From assembly GCF_900114645.1 (NCBI RefSeq), contig NZ_FOTR01000007.1, forward strand, positions 1 to 64,000: 64,000 nt of DNA, given 5' to 3'. The notes under the pieces are model-generated. The model was not told the origin of the DNA. It saw only the letters and a program-made list of their open reading frames with translations, and made no database searches. The DNA comes from Gracilibacillus orientalis (GTDB taxonomy: Bacteria; Bacillota; Bacilli; Bacillales; Amphibacillaceae). Each line of letters starts with the position of its first letter. The stretch's first letter is position 1. Shown here in pieces: positions 26,332 to 52,815 of this stretch. The translations under genes and the position numbers were made by a program.

Positions 26332-26455
26332 TCTCTGCACCTCCTCATATGACTCAGACTCGCCATACAGGTAGCTTATCAAAGCTTTAAAGACCTGTTC
26401 TGCGCGGTTGTTAGCAACGGGTGCTACTTAAACAACATGACGATCTTACCATATA
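26332..26455 (-). promoter_or_regulatory. Structured rplU leader (candidate L21 leader)
   Basis: The 124 nt before rplU contain nested complementary segments: caggt and agctt pairing with aagct and acctg around tgat, preceded by a gtagcacccgttgctaac block. Position and structure fit the L21 leader, a proposed autoregulatory ribosomal-protein element of Firmicutes. Covariance matching was not possible here. Confidence 0.6.
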
Positions 26456-42976: not shown

Positions 42977-43245
42977 AAAAAATCCTTTCCGGCCTTGTGT
43001 AATAAAGGACGAAAAGGATTGGGTTTCCGCGGTGCCACCTTAATTTATAAGTAATGCTACTTATACGCTTAGCAGAAGATAACGGATTTCACCGGCTTTT
43101 ACCTACTTGTTATGTTCAGTAAAGCTGCATCAGAGGCTACCTTCCTTCACCTTCTTTCGAGAAAACCTTTCAGCCTAGGGGTTTTCCTCTCTAGCGAACA
43201 GTGTGAAGTACTCCTCCTCATCATCGCATCTGACTAGTTTATGAT
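42977..43245 (-). promoter_or_regulatory. T-box riboswitch of valS (GUA specifier)
   Basis: On the minus strand: a long Stem I from about 43245 with the AGTA bulge and the paired cttcac / gtgaag; a specifier-loop codon GTA (43138-43140) just before gcctc; the antiterminator T-box aaggtggcaccgcgg (43028-43042); and a terminator aatcctttt...gaaaggatt with T run (42977-43020). GTA is a valine codon, matching the downstream gene. Confidence 0.93.
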
Positions 43246-44930: not shown

Positions 44931-46145
44931 TTAAAATGGACGGAATTTACCCTTTTTCAATACGAGTGTTGGTCCACCTAATAAGAACAGATAGCGGTCA
45001 TCAATCACATTTTTCATCACCTTTGCCTGCATACCATACAATTTACTTCCATCAAATACAGTACCCATTGCATCACTTCCACCTAACGATGCTACTGTTC
45101 CTTTATCATCGAACTTAAACTCCTGTAATGTACCACCATAAATCATCGTTTTAATATTATGTGCACAAACATCCGCTTCCTGAATGGCAATTTGTGCAGT
45201 CGGTGGGTATGGTTTACCCGTTTCGTTATTCATCACCCATGCACAATCACCTAAAATAAAGACCTCATCATGATCCGGAGCTGACAATGTTGCATCCACA
45301 TTGACTTTACCCTTTGTTAATTCAAAACCAGATTCTCCAACAATGCGATTAGCTTGTACACCACCAGTCCAAACAATGGTACTTGCCTTAATTTCTTCTT
45401 CCTCTTCACCAACTATAACAGAATCTGCTTTCACTTCTTTAATCATGGTACCAAGCTTAAATTCAATACCTCGATATTCCAGCGATTCTTTTGCATAGCT
45501 TAATAATTCTTCATCAAATCCTGGTAAAATCGATGGCATTGCTTCGACATCAATAATCTTCACGTCTTGACGTGGTATATCATATTTTTTACATAGCAGT
45601 GGAATTCGTTCTGCTAATTCACCCAAAAATTCAATACCGGTGAAACCAGCACCACCTACGACAATCGTTAGCATACTTGGATCAGGATTTTTTTCATTAC
45701 GATAACGAGCAAACTGATATTCAATGTGATCTCGAATCATACGACTCGTATCAACACTTTGAATTGAAAAAGCATGCTCTTCCATACCAGGAATACCGAA
45801 TGTAGCTTTTTCAAAACCTAAACCAATAACTAAATAATCGTAATTTATTTCTCCACTTTCTAATTGAATTGTTTTGCTTTCTTTATTAATTTTCACAACT
45901 GTATCATGCACAAAATTTACCCGGCGAGTATTAATGACATCTGAAATCATGATTCGAGAGCGATTTACATCAATTGTTCCTGCAGCCACTTCATGTAACC
46001 ATGTTGTTTGATAATGATAATTGTGTTTGTTGACTAAGGTAATGTCGGCTTCTTCTGGCGCAAATTGCTGAGTTAATCGTTTTGCTGTCATCATTCCTGC
46101 ATAGCCAGCACCAAGCACAACTATTTTAGGTTTGTTTCCTATCAT
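44931..46145 (-). CDS. ndh: Type II NADH dehydrogenase
   Basis: Non-proton-pumping NADH:menaquinone oxidoreductase. 404 aa: FAD-binding IVVLGAGYAGMMTAKRL, the NDH-2 motif NKHNYHYQTTWLHEVAAGT, NADH-binding VVGGAGFTGIEFLGEL, FILGDCAWV, and a hydrophobic C-terminus (DDRYLFLLGGPTLVLKKGKF) that would anchor it to the membrane. The long separate gap upstream suggests its own promoter. Confidence 0.93.
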   Translation of the reverse strand: MIGNKPKIVVLGAGYAGMMTAKRLTQQFAPEEADITLVNKHNYHYQTTWLHEVAAGTIDVNRSRIMISDVINTRRVNFVHDTVVKINKESKTIQLESGEINYDYLVIGLGFEKATFGIPGMEEHAFSIQSVDTSRMIRDHIEYQFARYRNEKNPDPSMLTIVVGGAGFTGIEFLGELAERIPLLCKKYDIPRQDVKIIDVEAMPSILPGFDEELLSYAKESLEYRGIEFKLGTMIKEVKADSVIVGEEEEEIKASTIVWTGGVQANRIVGESGFELTKGKVNVDATLSAPDHDEVFILGDCAWVMNNETGKPYPPTAQIAIQEADVCAHNIKTMIYGGTLQEFKFDDKGTVASLGGSDAMGTVFDGSKLYGMQAKVMKNVIDDRYLFLLGGPTLVLKKGKFRPF

Positions 46146-46446
46146 CTAATCCTTCCCTTCTTGTTATAGATCCATAATAAACTACGATAGTTTACACTTT
46201 TTCAACGATTTGTATGTATCATATCGATCGCAGTCAGTATATCAAAATTGCATTTTTTCGTCTAATAAACTATACCCCATTCCAAAAAGAATATTACATT
46301 TGCATTTAAACTTTCAGAAATAAAATTTGTGAAAGGAACCAAACAAAGCGCAAACTCCCGTATAAATACATAGCTGCAGGAAGTATGCTGTTTTTTTGAA
46401 TATTGGCTAGTAGCATTTACCTATATATTTTCTACCTTCAAAATAA
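46146..46446. other. Intergenic region between ndh and the SinI-like gene
   Basis: About 300 bp, AT-rich. A single ttgtgaa half-site near 46326 resembles half of a Rex operator, but the matching half is missing. No gene or other structure is supported. Confidence 0.4.
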
Positions 46447-46471
46447 AAAACCCTATATTTGCTAGGGTTTT
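46447..46471 (-). terminator. Terminator of the SinI-like gene
   Basis: The stem aaaacccta / tagggtttt (46447-46455 with 46463-46471) directly follows the stop codon, with a T run on the minus strand. Confidence 0.82.
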
Positions 46472-46475
46472 ATGA

Positions 46476-46610
46476 TTAGTTGAGTTGTACATTGGACTTG
46501 TATTTACTCTGATTTAGGAATTCTCGTATTTCTTCTACTGTGTAACCATCCGCTTTTGCTTTTGCCATCAAGTAAATCCATTCACAATCCACGTTTGTTT
46601 TTGTTAGCAT
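46476..46610 (-). CDS. SinI-family antirepressor-like small protein
   Basis: 44 aa. Residues 8-34 (DCEWIYLMAKAKADGYTVEE then IREFLNQ) match the SinI dimerisation domain, whose B. subtilis form reads DQEWVELMVEAKEANISPEE then IRKYL. SinI proteins bind SinR-type repressors and free biofilm genes. There is no DNA-binding domain, so an antirepressor role is inferred. The ribosome site ggagggg is 11 nt before ATG. A cyclic-di-GMP-I-like riboswitch lies 40 nt upstream and a terminator just downstream, so it is a one-gene unit. No sinR is in the window. Confidence 0.78.
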   Translation of the reverse strand: MLTKTNVDCEWIYLMAKAKADGYTVEEIREFLNQSKYKSNVQLN

Positions 46611-46630
46611 AAAAACATATTCCCCTCCTA

Positions 46631-46730
46631 AAATACACTACTGTATTTCAGGTAGCTCAGCCATCCGAAATCCTATGCATTTTACGGATCTGTAACTTTG
46701 CGTCCCTACTTCTCAATAGGTTTGCCTTTT
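46631..46730 (-). promoter_or_regulatory. Cyclic-di-GMP-I (GEMM-I) riboswitch upstream of SinI-like gene
   Basis: On the minus strand: ggcaaacc, then a stem cctatt / agtagg closed by the GNRA tetraloop gaga, then the hallmark gggacgcaaag, then a second stem with atccg / cggat, ending ggctgagctacc. This order fits the GEMM-I aptamer, whose two stems dock through a tetraloop and receptor. Between the aptamer end (46650) and the ribosome site (46622-46629) is a 7-bp hairpin, aaataca / tgtattt (46631-46648), a candidate expression platform. Confidence 0.8.
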
Positions 46731-47195
46731 TCTGATCATATATATCCCAAAATGGTAATAAATACATTTTTGTGTACTTAGTTATGATAATAATCATGCC
46801 TTTACAATCTAAGCATTATAACTGGATTACATACTACTGCTGTATCAACTACCTTCCCTTGATAGATATATTAACCCATTACTTTTTAATTCAATATAAT
46901 TCTGACAAGTATACTATCATTAAAGGTATCACCCCCTTTTTTTAAAAGTAAATACTTTAGCTAAATCCATAACACCTATTATCTTGTATATATTCGATAA
47001 ATGTCGATGATATTCCTGCATAATAATTTTAATTTTAAGAAAATAGAACTAGGTAATCCCGCTGATATATTTAATTTTAATAGTTGGAACTTTTCAAACT
47101 GCTCAATTAAAATTGTTAAATTGGGTACAATTCCATTTTTGCTGCATAAACTACAATATATAATGATTTATCTTATCATGAATGAGGTGATTTTT
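46731..47195. other. Intergenic region upstream of riboswitch and of small membrane gene
   Basis: About 460 bp of very AT-rich DNA between divergent units. It must hold promoters for both; a minus-strand tataat near 46815 and tatgat near 46735 are candidate -10 elements without good -35 partners. Nothing else supported. Confidence 0.4.
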
Positions 47196-47384
47196 TTGTC
47201 CCGTTATTATCGCTACCGTCTACCACCTTGGGCACGAGAATGGATATTTGTTTGTGAACGGTGCACGCTTCCAATCGTGATTTTTCAAGGTATACGAACA
47301 TTATTTATACCAACGACTTTCGATGTATTATTGTTAGGAATCTTAATTGGTATTCTTATTGCTTTTCAATTGGAATGGATATAA
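47196..47384 (+). CDS. Small two-helix membrane protein, unknown function
   Basis: 62 aa beginning SRYYRYRLPPWAREWIFVCE after the initiator, then two hydrophobic segments (TLPIVIFQGIRTLFIP and FDVLLLGILIGILIAFQLEW). The TTG at 47196 lies 7 nt after gaggtg; the open frame upstream to 47001 is AT-rich and has no site. Family not recognised. It converges on ysxE with only 4 bp between stops. Confidence 0.6.
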   Translation: MSRYYRYRLPPWAREWIFVCERCTLPIVIFQGIRTLFIPTTFDVLLLGILIGILIAFQLEWI

Positions 47385-47388
47385 TTAT

Positions 47389-48405
47389 CTAATATGCGTC
47401 TTCAAATTGCTCTGACTTTAAAGTTTTATAAATAAATTCTTGTAACTGAAACCCAAATAATAATCTACGGTATTCCTGTTCAATCTTGATGGAGCTATTT
47501 ACAGTATTTTTATTTCGTGATGATTGCATACTTGAAGATACTTCTTGTATCCATTTAGATGGTGAAAGCAATTGTAAAGCTAATAATGCTTTTTCATAGT
47601 CTGATAAATCAATATAACGACAATAGATTGAAAAAGAATCTATGACTTTTCCAATATCACAGTCATGAAATTGAAATAAATATTGATAATAAGCTGCTAA
47701 ATCATAGGTTGGAGAAGTCATAAAGGCATCTTCCCAATTTAAAAAATACGTGTTTGTTTGTGTGACCACATAATGGGAAGGTCGTATATTTCCGTGACAT
47801 AAGGTATATTTCATCTTTTCCGTTTCATCCATTACATCTAAGTAAATTTCTTGCCATCTTTCTAGTTGATTGAATGTGTGTTCTATATCGCGATAATACA
47901 TGCAAACTTGTAGCTCATATGGGGACATAAAACGCTTTGCTTCAAAATAACGAACGTACTTTAGCATTTGATCCCGATAGGTAGATAATTCTTGCTGAAA
48001 TTGTTGCTCTATAGTAGTTTTATTTTGTTTCATTGGTGCAATCTGATGATAATCCATAGTGGCAGCATGGAGACGACCGACAGCATGTATGGCTGTTGCA
48101 TACTCATCAATTGGTTGGTCCGTATAATCTTGTTCCACCCAGGGCATCAGATAATAAATATGTTCTTGGTCCTGTACAAAAAGTTGATTATTTTCAGCAT
48201 AATAAAGGGGAACAAAACCAAGTATCTGTTTTTGTTGTATAAATTGTTGGATCGCTTGCCACCTTCCTAAATCATCAGGATATAATCTTGATCTTTTTAA
48301 TGCATATTGTTGAGAGTTTGCTTTTATTTTAAATACTCTTTCTGTCACTTGCTCGATTTCCTCCGGTTGTAATTGATATGCTTCTATTATATTTGACCAT
48401 TCCAT
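47389..48405 (-). CDS. ysxE: YsxE, CotS-family spore coat kinase-like protein
   Basis: 338 aa, aminoglycoside-phosphotransferase/CotS fold. Visible: nucleotide lysine in YALKRSRLYP (Lys38), the catalytic loop LCHGNIRPSHYVV and the metal-site strand YFLNWEDAF. The last usually reads D/N-F/W-D/E in the family, here with Asn at the first place, so catalysis is uncertain. ATG 48405 follows aggagga; the frame extends to 48456. It is 63 bp after spoVID, the partner gene in B. subtilis. Confidence 0.87.
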   Translation of the reverse strand: MEWSNIIEAYQLQPEEIEQVTERVFKIKANSQQYALKRSRLYPDDLGRWQAIQQFIQQKQILGFVPLYYAENNQLFVQDQEHIYYLMPWVEQDYTDQPIDEYATAIHAVGRLHAATMDYHQIAPMKQNKTTIEQQFQQELSTYRDQMLKYVRYFEAKRFMSPYELQVCMYYRDIEHTFNQLERWQEIYLDVMDETEKMKYTLCHGNIRPSHYVVTQTNTYFLNWEDAFMTSPTYDLAAYYQYLFQFHDCDIGKVIDSFSIYCRYIDLSDYEKALLALQLLSPSKWIQEVSSSMQSSRNKNTVNSSIKIEQEYRRLLFGFQLQEFIYKTLKSEQFEDAY

Positions 48406-48468
48406 TTGTTTTCCTCCTTTCAAATCTGAAACAAAAAATCCCTTGACCGATACCAAGGGATTAAAACT

Positions 48469-49443
48469 TTAATCTTCTGAGATTATTGGAATATATATTA
48501 ATTGACCTGCTGATACATCATCTTCTTCTAAACGATTCGTTCTCATAATTTGTCTAGGAGAAACTTGATATCGCTCAGCAATAGTTTGCATTTGATCATC
48601 AGGCTGCACTATATATAATTTTAATCGAGTATAGCTAGCTTCCTCTTCTTCTGCAAAAATATTCAATAAATAGGTTGTATCATTTGCTCGCTCTTCTCTT
48701 GCTTGGACATGAAGTTTATCGTCTTCTTCGTCTTCTTCGTCGCCTTCTTCCTCTTCTTCCTCTTCACTTTCCAATACGACATCTTCTTCTGACTCTCTCA
48801 CTAATTCCTCTTCCTGTTCTTCTTCTATGCTATCATCTTCTTCAGCTATTTCCTGATCACTTCGCATACTGCTAATGGCTACAACTTTTTCCTCATCTGG
48901 ATGATCATCCAACTCTTCTTCTACTTTCACATGAAATGTATCCTCCGTATCTTCTTCTTGTTGTTCTTCTATTCGATTTTCCTCAAAGGATGGCAAAGTA
49001 TCTTCTTCTTGAATTTCTGCTTGAACCTCAGGCTCTTCGATACCTTGAATAGCAAGAGTTGCTTCTATAAACATTTCATTAGTTGATTCTAAAGAATAAT
49101 CGAAATGATCTACTTCAATTGAGACATCGTCTAATGAAGGGATTCTATCCATCGGGATCGATACATCAATAAGGAATTTATGGAAAAATTCGTTCACTTC
49201 ATCAGATAATGATTCTACTCGTTCCACATAGGTTGCGTTTGTTTGTCGCTCTTCACTTTCCTCAGGAGCATCATTTCTAATATACTCTCCTTTCAGTTCC
49301 ATTACTCCTCTAACGGAAAGTGTGTTACCTATCTCCTCCATTGAAATTACTGGCTCTAATCCAATGCCCAGCATTTCTTGGATTTGTTGTTCCTTATCAA
49401 AAGCTACTGCTTCATGAATATTAAAAGTAAAGGCTTCTTGCAA
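48469..49443 (-). CDS. spoVID: Stage VI sporulation protein SpoVID
   Basis: Morphogenetic protein that lets the spore coat encase the forespore, working with SafA and SpoIVA. 324 aa: N-terminal beta-rich domain (FNIHEAVAFDKEQQIQEMLG), a very acidic middle (about 140-255, with EESEEDVVLESEEEEEEEG) and a C-terminal LysM (LKLYIVQPDDQMQTIAERY to LIYIP). The start is TTG 49443 after ggggga. A sigma-E-type promoter lies at 49495-49523. Its B. subtilis partner gene safA is also in this window. Confidence 0.9.
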   Translation of the reverse strand: MQEAFTFNIHEAVAFDKEQQIQEMLGIGLEPVISMEEIGNTLSVRGVMELKGEYIRNDAPEESEERQTNATYVERVESLSDEVNEFFHKFLIDVSIPMDRIPSLDDVSIEVDHFDYSLESTNEMFIEATLAIQGIEEPEVQAEIQEEDTLPSFEENRIEEQQEEDTEDTFHVKVEEELDDHPDEEKVVAISSMRSDQEIAEEDDSIEEEQEEELVRESEEDVVLESEEEEEEEGDEEDEEDDKLHVQAREERANDTTYLLNIFAEEEEASYTRLKLYIVQPDDQMQTIAERYQVSPRQIMRTNRLEEDDVSAGQLIYIPIISED

Positions 49444-49494
49444 AGCACTTCCCCCTTTCTTTTGCTTAGCTAAGGCGTACTAGCATCTCAATAA

Positions 49495-49523
49495 ACTATA
49501 TGTAGGTTAACAGGGAAATATGC
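49495..49523 (-). promoter_or_regulatory. Sigma-E type promoter of spoVID
   Basis: Minus strand gcatatt (49517-49523) and catatagt (49495-49502) with a 14-bp spacer match the sigma-E pattern, about 52 bp before the start codon. Confidence 0.6.
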
Positions 49524-49731
49524 TTGATCAGTATTATTCAGCATGCTTATTTTCTGCTATAAAATAATGAACCAAAACACAATTACTTATACTTTTTCAG
49601 TACGGTGCAGCTTTATATAAGAATAAAAAATAGAGTAGTTTTTTTGTTGCGATTTTACGCTAACCAGTTTTTTTATCATTTATTATTTATGTTAAAATGA
49701 CATAAAAATAATTAGTATTTAGGGAGAAAAA

Positions 49732-50040
49732 ATGAGAAAACGTATTTTGTTTGTCTTAATCATATTTATAATTGGTTGTTCAGAAGAAAAGACGTATTCA
49801 GATACTCCAGATTTTATTGGAAGTGTTCTTTCTTTTGAGGATAGCAATCTGCGTGTGGATATAAAATCAGGAAATATTACTAACTATGGTTACGTAGACG
49901 AAATTATCATTATGATTGAGAACCCTGAATCTATGGAGGGCCTTGAAAAAGGTGATGAAATTAAAGTATGGATAGACGGTCAGTTATTAGATGGCCAACC
50001 ACCTCAAGCGAAATTAGCAAAATACGAAACCACTGAATAA
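49732..50040 (+). CDS. Small lipoprotein, DUF3221-like
   Basis: 102 aa: signal peptide with a lipobox (IIFIIGC, Cys16), then a small beta-rich domain (FIGSVLSFEDSNLRVDIKSG, then GDEIKVWIDGQLLD) resembling DUF3221 proteins. It would be anchored outside the membrane. ATG follows agggag. Plus-strand gene inside a mostly minus-strand region and next to a repeat element. Function unknown. Confidence 0.72.
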   Translation: MRKRILFVLIIFIIGCSEEKTYSDTPDFIGSVLSFEDSNLRVDIKSGNITNYGYVDEIIIMIENPESMEGLEKGDEIKVWIDGQLLDGQPPQAKLAKYETTE

Positions 50041-50182
50041 CCTTCAATTAAACTATTAAAAAATGTTCCCTCTTACAACACAGTTACCATAAACTGCGCA
50101 GTAACTCTATAAAGAACTTCCTTCCATTCTGCATTTTGATGATTGCTGCAATACGCGCTACGGCAAGATACTTCGCTTTTGT

Positions 50183-50280
50183 GTAGTGTTCTGATTATCG
50201 AAAGAAGAGAACTTATGGAATGATATTCTATGGATTTCTTCTTGCATGATAAGAAATTACACACTAAGCTGCGGAAAAAT
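50183..50280 (+). repeat. Long repeat shared with 49-147
   Basis: Nearly identical to 49-147 over about 97 bases (gtagtgttctg to gctgcggaaaaa). It leads straight into the interspersed repeat at 50269-50388. Open frames on either strand here follow the repeat and are not genes. Confidence 0.75.
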
Positions 50281-50388
50281 GCGACACTCCTGTGGGAACA
50301 GCGCGAGCTGAAGATCCCGCAGCGAACGTATGTGAGCGAGGAAACTGAAGCCGTGCCCACGGAAAGGGAGTATTTTTCCGCAGCGATG
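50269..50388 (+). repeat. Interspersed Bacillaceae repeat, right-hand copy
   Basis: It begins aagctgcggaaaaatgcgac, runs through ctcctgtgggaacagcgcga and gaagatcccgcagcgaacg, and ends tatttttccgcagcg. The outer ends are complementary (gcggaaaaat / tttttccgc), so a transcript would form a long hairpin. Related copies are at 1-45, 186-262 and 355-475. Confidence 0.75.
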
Positions 50389-50490
50389 TCTAGCACTCCA
50401 TTTCCGAAAGAAAGGAGCTTACCAAAGAAAATTTTCACTAGTGCACAGTTTGTATCTACTGCTGTATAAAATATTTATGATATGTAGCAG

Positions 50491-50529
50491 AAAAAAAGCT
50501 TGCAAACCTTTGTTGGTTTGCAAGCTTTT
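50491..50529 (-). terminator. Terminator of the hemAXCDBL operon
   Basis: The 15-bp perfect stem aaaagcttgcaaacc / ggtttgcaagctttt (50494-50508 with 50515-50529) just past hemL is followed by T7 on the minus strand. Confidence 0.92.
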
Positions 50530-50532
50530 GGA

Positions 50533-51819
50533 TTAGGATAACTTTTCAAATGCTTTTTCTGCTGCTTCAATTGTTTTTTCAATATCTTCATCTGTATGGG
50601 CAATTGACAGGAATAGTCCTTCGAATTGAGAAGGTGGAAGGAAGATTCCCTCTTCCGCCATTGTTTGATAATAAGTTGCGAAGGCTTCGGTATCTGAATT
50701 CGCTGCTGTTTCATAGTTAACAACTGGTTCTTCCGCGAAAAAGACTCCAACCATAGATCCCGCACGATTAATTTGTAAGGATACATTGTGTTTGTCTGCT
50801 GCTAATCTATAACCTTCAACAAGACGATCCACTTTCTTACTAATCTCGTCATAAGCAGCACGATCCATCGCCTTTAATGTTTCTAAACCAGCCGTCATCG
50901 CAAGCGGGTTACCAGATAAAGTTCCAGCCTGATAAATATCACCTACCGGAGCAATACGCTCCATGATCTCACGTTTGCCACCATACGCACCAACCGGTAA
51001 ACCGCCACCGATTACTTTCCCTAAACAAGTTAAATCTGGTGTCACCTCAAAATGACCTTGTGCACAGTGATATCCAACTCGAAAACCAGTCATTACTTCA
51101 TCAAAGATTAGTAAAGATTCTTGCTGATTGGTAATATCACGTAATGATTTTAAGAAATCCTGATTTGGTGGAACAACTCCCATGTTTCCTGATACAGGCT
51201 CCACAATAACAGCTGCTATATCATCACCAAATTGTTCAAAAGCATAACGAACACTTTCTATGTCATTATAAGGTACTGTAATCGTATGCTGTGCAACACT
51301 TTCTGGCACACCAGGGCTGTCAGGAAGACCTAATGTCGCAACACCTGAACCAGCTTTAATAAGTAATGAGTCACCATGACCATGGTAATTGCCTTCAAAC
51401 TTCAAAATTTTATTTTTCCCAGTATAACCACGAGCTAGTCTCAAGGCACTCATCGTTGCTTCTGTACCTGAGTTAACCATACGAACCATTTCGATTGAAG
51501 GAACACGATCAATTACTAATTGTGCTAATTCATTTTCAAGTAATGTTGGAGCTCCAAAGCTTGTCCCTTTTTCTGTTGTTTCTTTTAATTTTGAAACTAC
51601 ACGGTCATCCGCATGCCCTAATATTAATGGTCCCCAGCTTAATACATAGTCAATGTATTCATTGCCATCAATATCATAAATTTTCGATCCTTTTCCATAT
51701 TCCATATAAATAGGATTCATTCCAACTGATTTAAACGCTCGAACAGGTGAATTAACCCCGCCCGGCATTAAGTTTACCGATTCTTTATATGCCTCTACCG
51801 ATTTCTGATTTTCAAGCAT
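50533..51819 (-). CDS. hemL: Glutamate-1-semialdehyde 2,1-aminomutase
   Basis: PLP enzyme making 5-aminolevulinate from glutamate-1-semialdehyde. 428 aa: start [41 protein letters not shown] and the PLP lysine Lys268 in [20 protein letters not shown] follows aaggagg. Last gene of the haem operon, 18 bp after hemB. Confidence 0.97.
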
Positions 51820-51837
51820 AAATGATCGCCTCCTTAT

Positions 51838-52815
51838 TTACTTTTGAAGCCATTTTGCCACATCTTTAGCAAAATAGGTAATAATAATGTCCGCTCCAGC
51901 TCGTTTCATTGCTGTCAATTTCTCTAAAACGATTGCCTGCTCATCAATCCATCCCTTAAGACTTGCTGCTTTTACCATGGAATATTCTCCACTTACATTG
52001 TAAGCAACTACCGGGACAGGGTGTTGATTCTTTACGTCACGAATGATATCCATATAGGATAAGGCCGGTTTAACAATTAAAAAGTCGGCACCTTCGTCGA
52101 TATCAGATGCAGCTTCACGCATTGCTTCTAACCGATTTGCAGGGTCCATTTGATACGTTTTTCTGTCACCGAATTGTGGTGTACTTTCTGCTGCATCACG
52201 GAATGGACCATAAAAAGCAGAAGCATATTTTACCGCATAGGACATAATGGGGGTTTGTTTAAAACCTGCCTCATCTAGACCTTTGCGAATTTCAGATACG
52301 AATCCGTCCATCATATTCGATGGTGCAATGATATCAGCACCTGCTTCAGCTTGCGTAACAGCTGTCTTCACATGTAAAGGTAATGATTTGTCATTATCGA
52401 CATCCTGATTTTCAATGACACCACAATGACCATGGGATGTATACTCACATAAACAAGTATCCGCGATGATTAGCAACTGATCTGTCTTCTGTTTAATCTG
52501 ACGAATAGCCAGTTGAACAATACCATTCGGATCAAATGCTCCAGAACCAACTTCGTCTTTCTCTTTAGGCACCCCGAATAAAAGAATGGAAGGAATCCCA
52601 AGTGACAATAACTCCTCTACTTCTTCATCCAAGTGATCTAATGATACTTGAAAAACCCCAGGCATTGAACTAACTTCATTTTTTACATTTTCCCCTTCGA
52701 CAACGAACAATGGGTAAACTAAATCATCTACTTTTATATCTGTTTCACGAACAAATCGTCTCATAACAGTGGAGTTTCTTAAGCGACGATGACGATCAAA
52801 TTGTGTTTTTGCCAT
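51838..52815 (-). CDS. hemB: Porphobilinogen synthase (5-aminolevulinate dehydratase)
   Basis: Joins two 5-aminolevulinates into porphobilinogen. 325 aa with Schiff-base lysines Lys196 ([17 protein letters not shown]) and Lys249 ([12 protein letters not shown]) and a zinc-type cysteine cluster Cys121, Cys123 and Cys131 in [13 protein letters not shown]. Its start overlaps the hemD stop by one base. Confidence 0.97.

Follow-up and report, generated by a model that had tools for sequence, protein, structure and literature searches.

A c-di-GMP-I riboswitch that probably controls translation of an orphan sinI in Gracilibacillus orientalis, and its apparent remnant in Bacillus subtilis

Is c-di-GMP read directly into the Sin switch by an RNA? 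SinI and SinR form the textbook biofilm switch of Bacillus subtilis, which is usually described as under Spo0A control and as separate from c-di-GMP. In B. subtilis, c-di-GMP is not known to drive this switch. The question is raised by a locus of Gracilibacillus orientalis, a halophilic relative of Bacillus, that lies in the window, by which we mean the whole 64,000-nucleotide stretch of contig NZ_FOTR01000007.1 that was analyzed. We put the probability at about 0.8 that a c-di-GMP-I riboswitch controls translation of the orphan sinI at this locus, most likely as an ON switch. Genome comparison finds this riboswitch-sinI module widely among Bacillales; the B. subtilis sinI leader appears to be its decayed descendant. 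The minus strand carries, in order, the aptamer, an overlapping hairpin, the Shine-Dalgarno sequence (SD), the 44-codon ORF and a terminator-like site:

46647..46735, minus strand: c-di-GMP-I riboswitch aptamer, above gathering for both RF03167 and RF01051
46735-46732 with 46651-46648, minus strand: P1 of the aptamer, read from the sequence and the Rfam alignment
46627..46652, minus strand: anti-SD hairpin, 11-bp stem, from the minimum-energy fold and a pattern match
46652-46642, minus strand: 5' arm of the hairpin, CCTGAAATACA, starting at the C92 equivalent and containing the 3' strand of P1
46641-46638, minus strand: loop of the hairpin
46637-46627, minus strand: 3' arm of the hairpin, TGTATTTTAGG, running into the SD
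46624..46629, minus strand: Shine-Dalgarno AGGAGG, from the sequence
46476..46610, minus strand: sinI-like gene, 44 aa, ATG start, stop codon included, from PF08671, a profile match and a conserved frame
46447..46471, minus strand: terminator-like site 3' of sinI, 9-pair stem (3 G-C), then a T-rich tail

A preliminary description of this DNA, made from the letters alone, had placed a GEMM-I riboswitch, a ribosome site and a terminator here. The first is confirmed by RF01051 (c-di-GMP-I), which scores 63.1 bits in a genome search (gathering 35). RF03167 (c-di-GMP-I-GGC) scores 65.1 bits (gathering 59, E 4.2e-13, cmscan of the window). The SD begins 17 nt after the aptamer end. AGGAGG at 46629-46624 and the terminator-like site at 46471-46447 (one found, 0.4 expected) are also present as described. 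Of 200 dinucleotide shuffles, 199 fold less well than the leader (z -3.29). No exact 0A box (TGTCGAA) was identified in 45550-52695, and the whole window holds 7 against 8.2 expected. A sigma-70 promoter search of 46380-47420 on both strands gave no excess (7 sites, 7.4 expected). A five-codon frame, ATG TTT TTA TGC TAA (46618-46604, minus strand), overlaps the start of sinI and is nearer to the SD; it might damp translation of sinI in this strain. A conserved mini-ORF before sinI was rejected, as the relatives compared have ACG or ACA in place of the ATG.

Two other RNA leaders in the window score above gathering, a T-box leader (43002-43233, minus strand, 121.7 bits) and a ribosomal protein L21 leader (26346-26419, minus strand, 48.8 bits). 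We identified three further c-di-GMP-I aptamers in the genome (C17:26599-26685, minus strand; C22:11952-12041, plus strand; C9:3556-3644, minus strand). Those on C22 and C9 are near-identical, and both are followed by the same terminator-like hairpin. By eye, the frames after these aptamers are response regulator-like (C17), secreted protein-like (C22) and AMP-binding enzyme-like (C9).

The 44-aa product had been described as carrying a SinI domain. Residues 8-33 match PF08671 at E 6.8e-7 with 29.4 bits, 2 bits under the curated cut-off of 31.4, and the match to the NCBIfam SinI model (E 3.6e-7, 30.1 bits) is far below its cut-off of 80. A profile of 20 riboswitch-linked relatives matches the solved SinI chains 1b0n_B (3.5e-10) and 5tmx_A (4.3e-10), and all 20 profile members match PF08671 at E <= 0.001. 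Judged by profile, the ORF is a SinI homologue that falls slightly under the Pfam cut-off; the earlier assignment stands on this homology and on the conserved frame, not on the domain score. A SinI relative was found at E <= 0.01 in 90 of 146 family genomes searched. The Ka/Ks comparison, which is limited to four close sequences with few changes, indicates only modest purifying selection (pN/pS about 0.5-0.65), and the five more distant of the six pairs differ by 4-6.5 synonymous and 10-16 non-synonymous changes. Identity to the nearest named loci is 80% (G. suaedae) and 75% (G. lacisalsi) for the 44-aa SinI, and 96% and 93%, respectively, for the neighboring oxidoreductase.

The pair recurs in relatives, where the preliminary description had proposed to look for it. 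It is present in 15 of 17 genus genomes. The 30 best SinI loci include 21 with an aptamer just upstream, and among 75 SinI loci of named genomes it lies 0-250 nt upstream on the same strand in 43, elsewhere in the stretch in 6 and nowhere in 26; the proportions 21/30 and 43/75 lean upward because the protein queries were riboswitch-linked SinI. Represented in the 43 are Paenibacillus, Virgibacillus, Oceanobacillus, Peribacillus and Neobacillus, as well as Salibacterium, Halalkalibacter, Rossellomorea, Lentibacillus and Domibacillus. A chance aptamer was rejected in view of the conserved aptamer-sinI pairing. In 11 of 12 Gracilibacillus loci the preceding gene is a homologue of window 47389-48456, which we take to be a ysxE-like gene, and the following gene is a homologue of the oxidoreductase at 44931-46145; the twelfth (L013) matches neither neighbor. 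Once duplicates and the six aptamers in other positions (L104, L105, L127, L130, L158, L161) had been dropped, 54 distinct riboswitch-sinI loci were available for the comparisons below. In L104, L105, L158 and L161 (Alkalihalobacillus-type) an extra c-di-GMP-I aptamer is located on the strand opposite to sinI, about 1.4 kb away, and in L127 and L130 one is located 0.93-0.98 kb downstream of sinI on the same strand.

The hairpin between aptamer and gene suggests how the two may be coupled. Its 5' arm comprises the C92 equivalent and the 3' strand of P1; therefore, the hairpin and the closed, ligand-bound aptamer are mutually exclusive. The 11-bp stem of the window was reached in 2 of 500 linker shuffles. 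Such an SD-hiding helix, seen as an uninterrupted 7-11 bp stem between the aptamer tail and the SD start that is equaled in <5% of linker shuffles, is present in 25 of the 54 loci, window included; one further 7-bp stem was not above its shuffles. The same stem test gave 1 of 30 for c-di-GMP-I aptamers of other genes (this genome and family). The hairpin occurs in three sequence versions (Gracilibacillus type, Salibacterium, Paenibacillus). A comparison of 9 distinct arm pairs shows two-sided changes at 5 of 10 base pairs (equaled in 14 of 500 shuffles), and 90% of cells pair (0 of 500 shuffles; 64% in the best slid register). The number of further pair types in these arms, one of five measures, was not above shuffles (267/500).

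Predicted folds are consistent with this exclusion. The minimum-energy fold of the window RNA without ligand consists of P2, P3 and the 11-bp hairpin, with no P1. Forcing P1 costs 7.5 kcal/mol (-31.6 to -24.1), so ligand or co-transcriptional folding must pay for P1. With P1 forced, predicted SD accessibility goes from 0.42 to 0.80 across the 25 hairpin loci, against 0.52 to 0.60 when the linkers are shuffled; for the window by itself the predicted gain is small (0.36 to 0.53). The remaining 29 loci, many of which have a GGGGG-type SD, gain 0.24, no more than shuffled linkers do (0.27), and therefore the SD-hiding mechanism does not cover them. A single SD mechanism for all riboswitch-sinI loci was rejected on this basis. 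An intrinsic terminator ahead of the SD was also rejected, as no run of 5 T occurs between aptamer and SD in any of the 54 loci.

An opposite or different control has to be weighed here, in which c-di-GMP turns sinI OFF or acts through transcript level (Rho-dependent termination, RNA decay) and not through the SD. It is favored by the 29 loci that have no SD-hiding stem beyond shuffles, by two of the 54 loci in which forced P1 lowers SD accessibility by >0.1, and by the aptamers of other genes, which mostly look transcriptional: 26 of 30, including the three other aptamers from this genome, show >=5 consecutive T within 150 nt. However, P1 and the SD helix of the hairpin class use one strand, so that ligand should free the SD, and the T-run is absent from all 54 sinI leaders (over the aptamer-to-SD stretch, which is shorter than the 150 nt of the comparison aptamers). 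We consider OFF or transcript-level control quite unlikely. Going by the modeled folds, the hairpin class should be under translational control that is ON with ligand.

The following sequence of events is proposed for the ON switch. Without ligand, the hairpin would hide the SD. Binding of c-di-GMP would capture the C92 equivalent, upon which P1 would close, the hairpin would be shortened and the SD would be freed. SinI would then be made and would bind (titrate) SinR, and matrix genes, for example the tasA cluster near sinR, would be derepressed. Binding of SinI to SinR, with derepression of biofilm genes as the outcome, has been described (PMC3163267).

Other parts of this pathway were identified in the genome. 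The preliminary description had pointed to sinR as the gene to look for, and a SinR-type gene does exist. It is on another contig (C16), has no sinI beside it, and includes a PF08671 region (45.9 bits). A tasA homologue (PF12389, 264.6 bits) is found about 29 kb away on the same contig, along with tapA-like and sipW-like frames (by eye), and the genome has 4 GGDEF matches. In this genus sinI is not beside sinR. A second SinR-like frame (C6:178801-179040, minus strand; L070) is 49% identical to the query across residues 3-85, and another small SinI-like ORF (C13:273144-273224, plus strand; L002) has no Rfam aptamer in its stretch.

Given the separation of sinI from sinR and these second copies on C6 and C13, the small SinI-fold protein could act on a partner other than the master SinR, for example on the second SinR-like protein. 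We think this unlikely: a SinR homologue is encoded within 1.6 kb downstream in 21 of the 54 riboswitch-sinI loci (within 0.35 kb in 20 of these), and the SinR of this genome retains its PF08671 region.

The spread of the module was also approached independently of SinI. A scan of 397 Bacillales genomes with CCTGRAATACN{3,10}GTATTTTRGG, a pattern derived from the hairpin, gave matches in 90, once each, in 25 of 136 genera and 14 families (hand-listed); the reversed pattern gave 0 among the matches listed. All 90 matches directly precede a small ORF, and each of these ORFs is recognized by the SinI profile (E <= 0.001). Model R1 identified the aptamer in 85 of the 90 loci, 30 of which were used to build the model and match by construction, and an Rfam aptamer was found in 18 of 20 pattern loci tested. 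Two of the 85 have low R1 scores (L189, 36.0 bits; L199, 32.1 bits), and in L189 a long P3 insertion separates the two visible aptamer halves. Covariation of P2 and P3 is seen in 30 aligned of 83 loci with a recognizable core; the hairpin pairs are near-invariant in this alignment because the pattern selected them. The accessibility prediction was repeated on 25 of the 83 loci, the other 58 being skipped for length or for want of a 4-bp P1 in the register tried. Forced P1 raised accessibility from 0.38 to 0.76 (0.56 to 0.71 with shuffled linkers), by >0.1 in 24 of 25. Several SinI-linked aptamers (L182-L196) have long P3 insertions, with 135-177 nt from pattern to core, which is unusual for this compact aptamer.

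The signal had been given in the preliminary description as a cyclic dinucleotide. That part holds, and three residues narrow it to c-di-GMP. We take window positions 46726, 46699 and 46652 to be the equivalents of G20, A47 and C92, the ligand contacts in Vc2 numbering. The window has G, A and C there, and because of this we assign its aptamer to the c-di-GMP type and not to the A20 type. The A20 type of c-di-GMP-I aptamer is tied to cGAMP, and cGAMP was rejected as ligand of the window aptamer given the G at position 20. RF03167, the best-scoring Rfam model for the window (65.1 vs 63.1 bits), has GA in J2/3, whereas the window has AA. We read the 'GGC' in its name as G at the first J2/3 position; the window has A at that position, and by that residue it is therefore of the ordinary c-di-GMP-I type. 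AA was found in J2/3 of 52 of the 54 SinI-linked aptamers, the other 2 not being read. An A at the position-20 equivalent occurs in 6 of the 54 (L030, L032, L142, L145, L154, L159), 4 of the 54 not being read at this position by the expression used. This change is linked to cGAMP recognition in Geobacter, and the ligand choice of these six aptamers may differ.

It is very improbable that the leader senses another dinucleotide (e.g., cGAMP), or has lost sensing so that the hairpin alone sets a low, constant translation. The top Rfam score of the variant family RF03167, the six A20-type aptamers, and the retention of the hairpin without a detectable aptamer in Bacillus sensu stricto would fit such a leader. 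The G, A and C of the window, at the positions taken to be the contacts, do not, and the covariation of P2 and P3 in the 30 aligned aptamers is expected if binding of the ligand is maintained.

The five pattern loci that lack an aptamer (L172-L176) are from the same genus as B. subtilis; all 44 genomes searched in it have a SinI match. In genome G553, SinI is identical to 1b0n_B and a SinR-type frame (by eye) is located behind it; therefore, G553 is B. subtilis or very close kin. Its sinI leader, GTCATGGCCGGACTGGCTGAAATACATAAACAAGTATTTTAGGAGG, has an aptamer end with G for the C92 equivalent, followed by the hairpin and the SD. All 30 Bacillus sensu stricto loci fetched retain the hairpin in the form CTGAAATAC/GTATTTTRGG. 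The 22 nt before the hairpin were compared with the aptamer end in 17 B. subtilis-group loci, ranked among about 6,300 positions. They take first place in 14 of these loci, second place in 2 and fourth place in 1; the cases are not independent because the strains are close relatives. The remaining 13 loci of the genus place this segment 9th or lower. Within the B. subtilis group the 22-nt segment and the hairpin are nearly invariant. Around a variable stretch of these leaders (L254:1362-1488 and 16 others, alignment A6), TTCTGG and CTTCCAGA are kept, and could pair mutually or with the aptamer remnant. The pumilus-like leaders (L172-L176, L279-L281) keep the CC of the hairpin and have a GACGCAAGC segment upstream; their aptamer looks as if it were in mid-decay or changed.

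The aptamer-only model R1 had no significant hit in any of the 30 Bacillus sensu stricto loci; its best match (12.0 bits, E 0.31) is off the leader, and on the leaders it reaches 11.2 bits (E 0.53) in pumilus-like L279-L281 and 7.0 bits (E 8.9) in B. subtilis. The combined model R2 gives 30 matches at the 30 leaders (8.6-26.7 bits), with 20.1 bits (E 0.015) for B. subtilis and 26.7 bits (E 0.0005) for the pumilus-like leaders, although most of this score may come from the hairpin alone. No covariation was detected in the alignment of B. subtilis-group leaders, and the fold of the B. subtilis leader is not unusually good (27 of 200 shuffles as good).

We hold with moderate confidence that dedicated riboswitch control of SinI by c-di-GMP is old biofilm wiring of the Bacillales and that the B. 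subtilis sinI leader is its fossil. This leader keeps the SD hairpin and the closing segment of the aptamer, and the ligand core is not detectable; apparently, it is a fossil riboswitch in which the sensor was lost. Alternatively, there is no fossil: either the hairpin is the older element, to which other lineages later added the aptamer, or the 22 nt resemble the aptamer end by chance. The absence of a significant R1 match in the 30 loci, the low rank of the segment in 13 of them, the lack of covariation in the putative remnant, and a B. subtilis leader that does not fold unusually well agree with that account, which we regard as possible but doubtful. The segment tops about 6,300 positions in 14 of 17 B. 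subtilis-group loci exactly at the expected place, and its near-invariance there, together with the hairpin, also speaks for descent from the riboswitch. A hairpin that came first, with a later aptamer, is less likely because the P3 strand is retained.

The preliminary description had supposed the link between riboswitch and sinI to be undescribed. This is not quite so, as an RNA-seq paper on B. methanolicus MGA3 predicts '(c-di-GMP)-sinI' for BMMGA3_08510 in its text and Table 4 (PMC4342826). The riboswitch ligand class and the target gene family are the same; the entry consists of a table row and a sentence, which give no platform, spread or test. What is added here is the SD-hiding hairpin, the distribution over 25 genera and the apparent B. 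subtilis remnant, and in open-licence PMC literature we found nothing on the platform, the spread of the pair or the remnant. The Bc2/cbpA riboswitch of the Bacillus cereus group is likewise a c-di-GMP-I ON switch related to biofilm and adhesion; in the account given in PMC7423583 it switches on transcription of an adhesin gene, whereas the present riboswitch targets an anti-repressor, through what looks like a translational platform. In B. thuringiensis overexpressing CdgF, sinI expression is higher at high c-di-GMP, according to unpublished data mentioned by the authors of PMC7793685. B. subtilis sinI-sinR shares the leader hairpin, the SinI identical to 1b0n_B (G553) and the SinR-type frame behind it, but differs in having no detectable c-di-GMP aptamer and G for the C92 equivalent. 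The single pair of the window is an instance of a known riboswitch class with a target noted once before. A specialist would be more surprised by the apparent B. subtilis fossil and by a conserved switch that is built on a ligand-contact base.

If these readings are correct, many Bacillales read c-di-GMP directly into SinI translation via one conserved RNA module, and B. subtilis would stand apart as a species whose sensor was lost. Such a loss would account for the lack of a known role of c-di-GMP in driving its Sin switch. The finding would make directly testable why c-di-GMP does not set the B. subtilis matrix switch, and it provides dozens of homologous leaders whose SD-hiding strand begins at a ligand-contact nucleotide.
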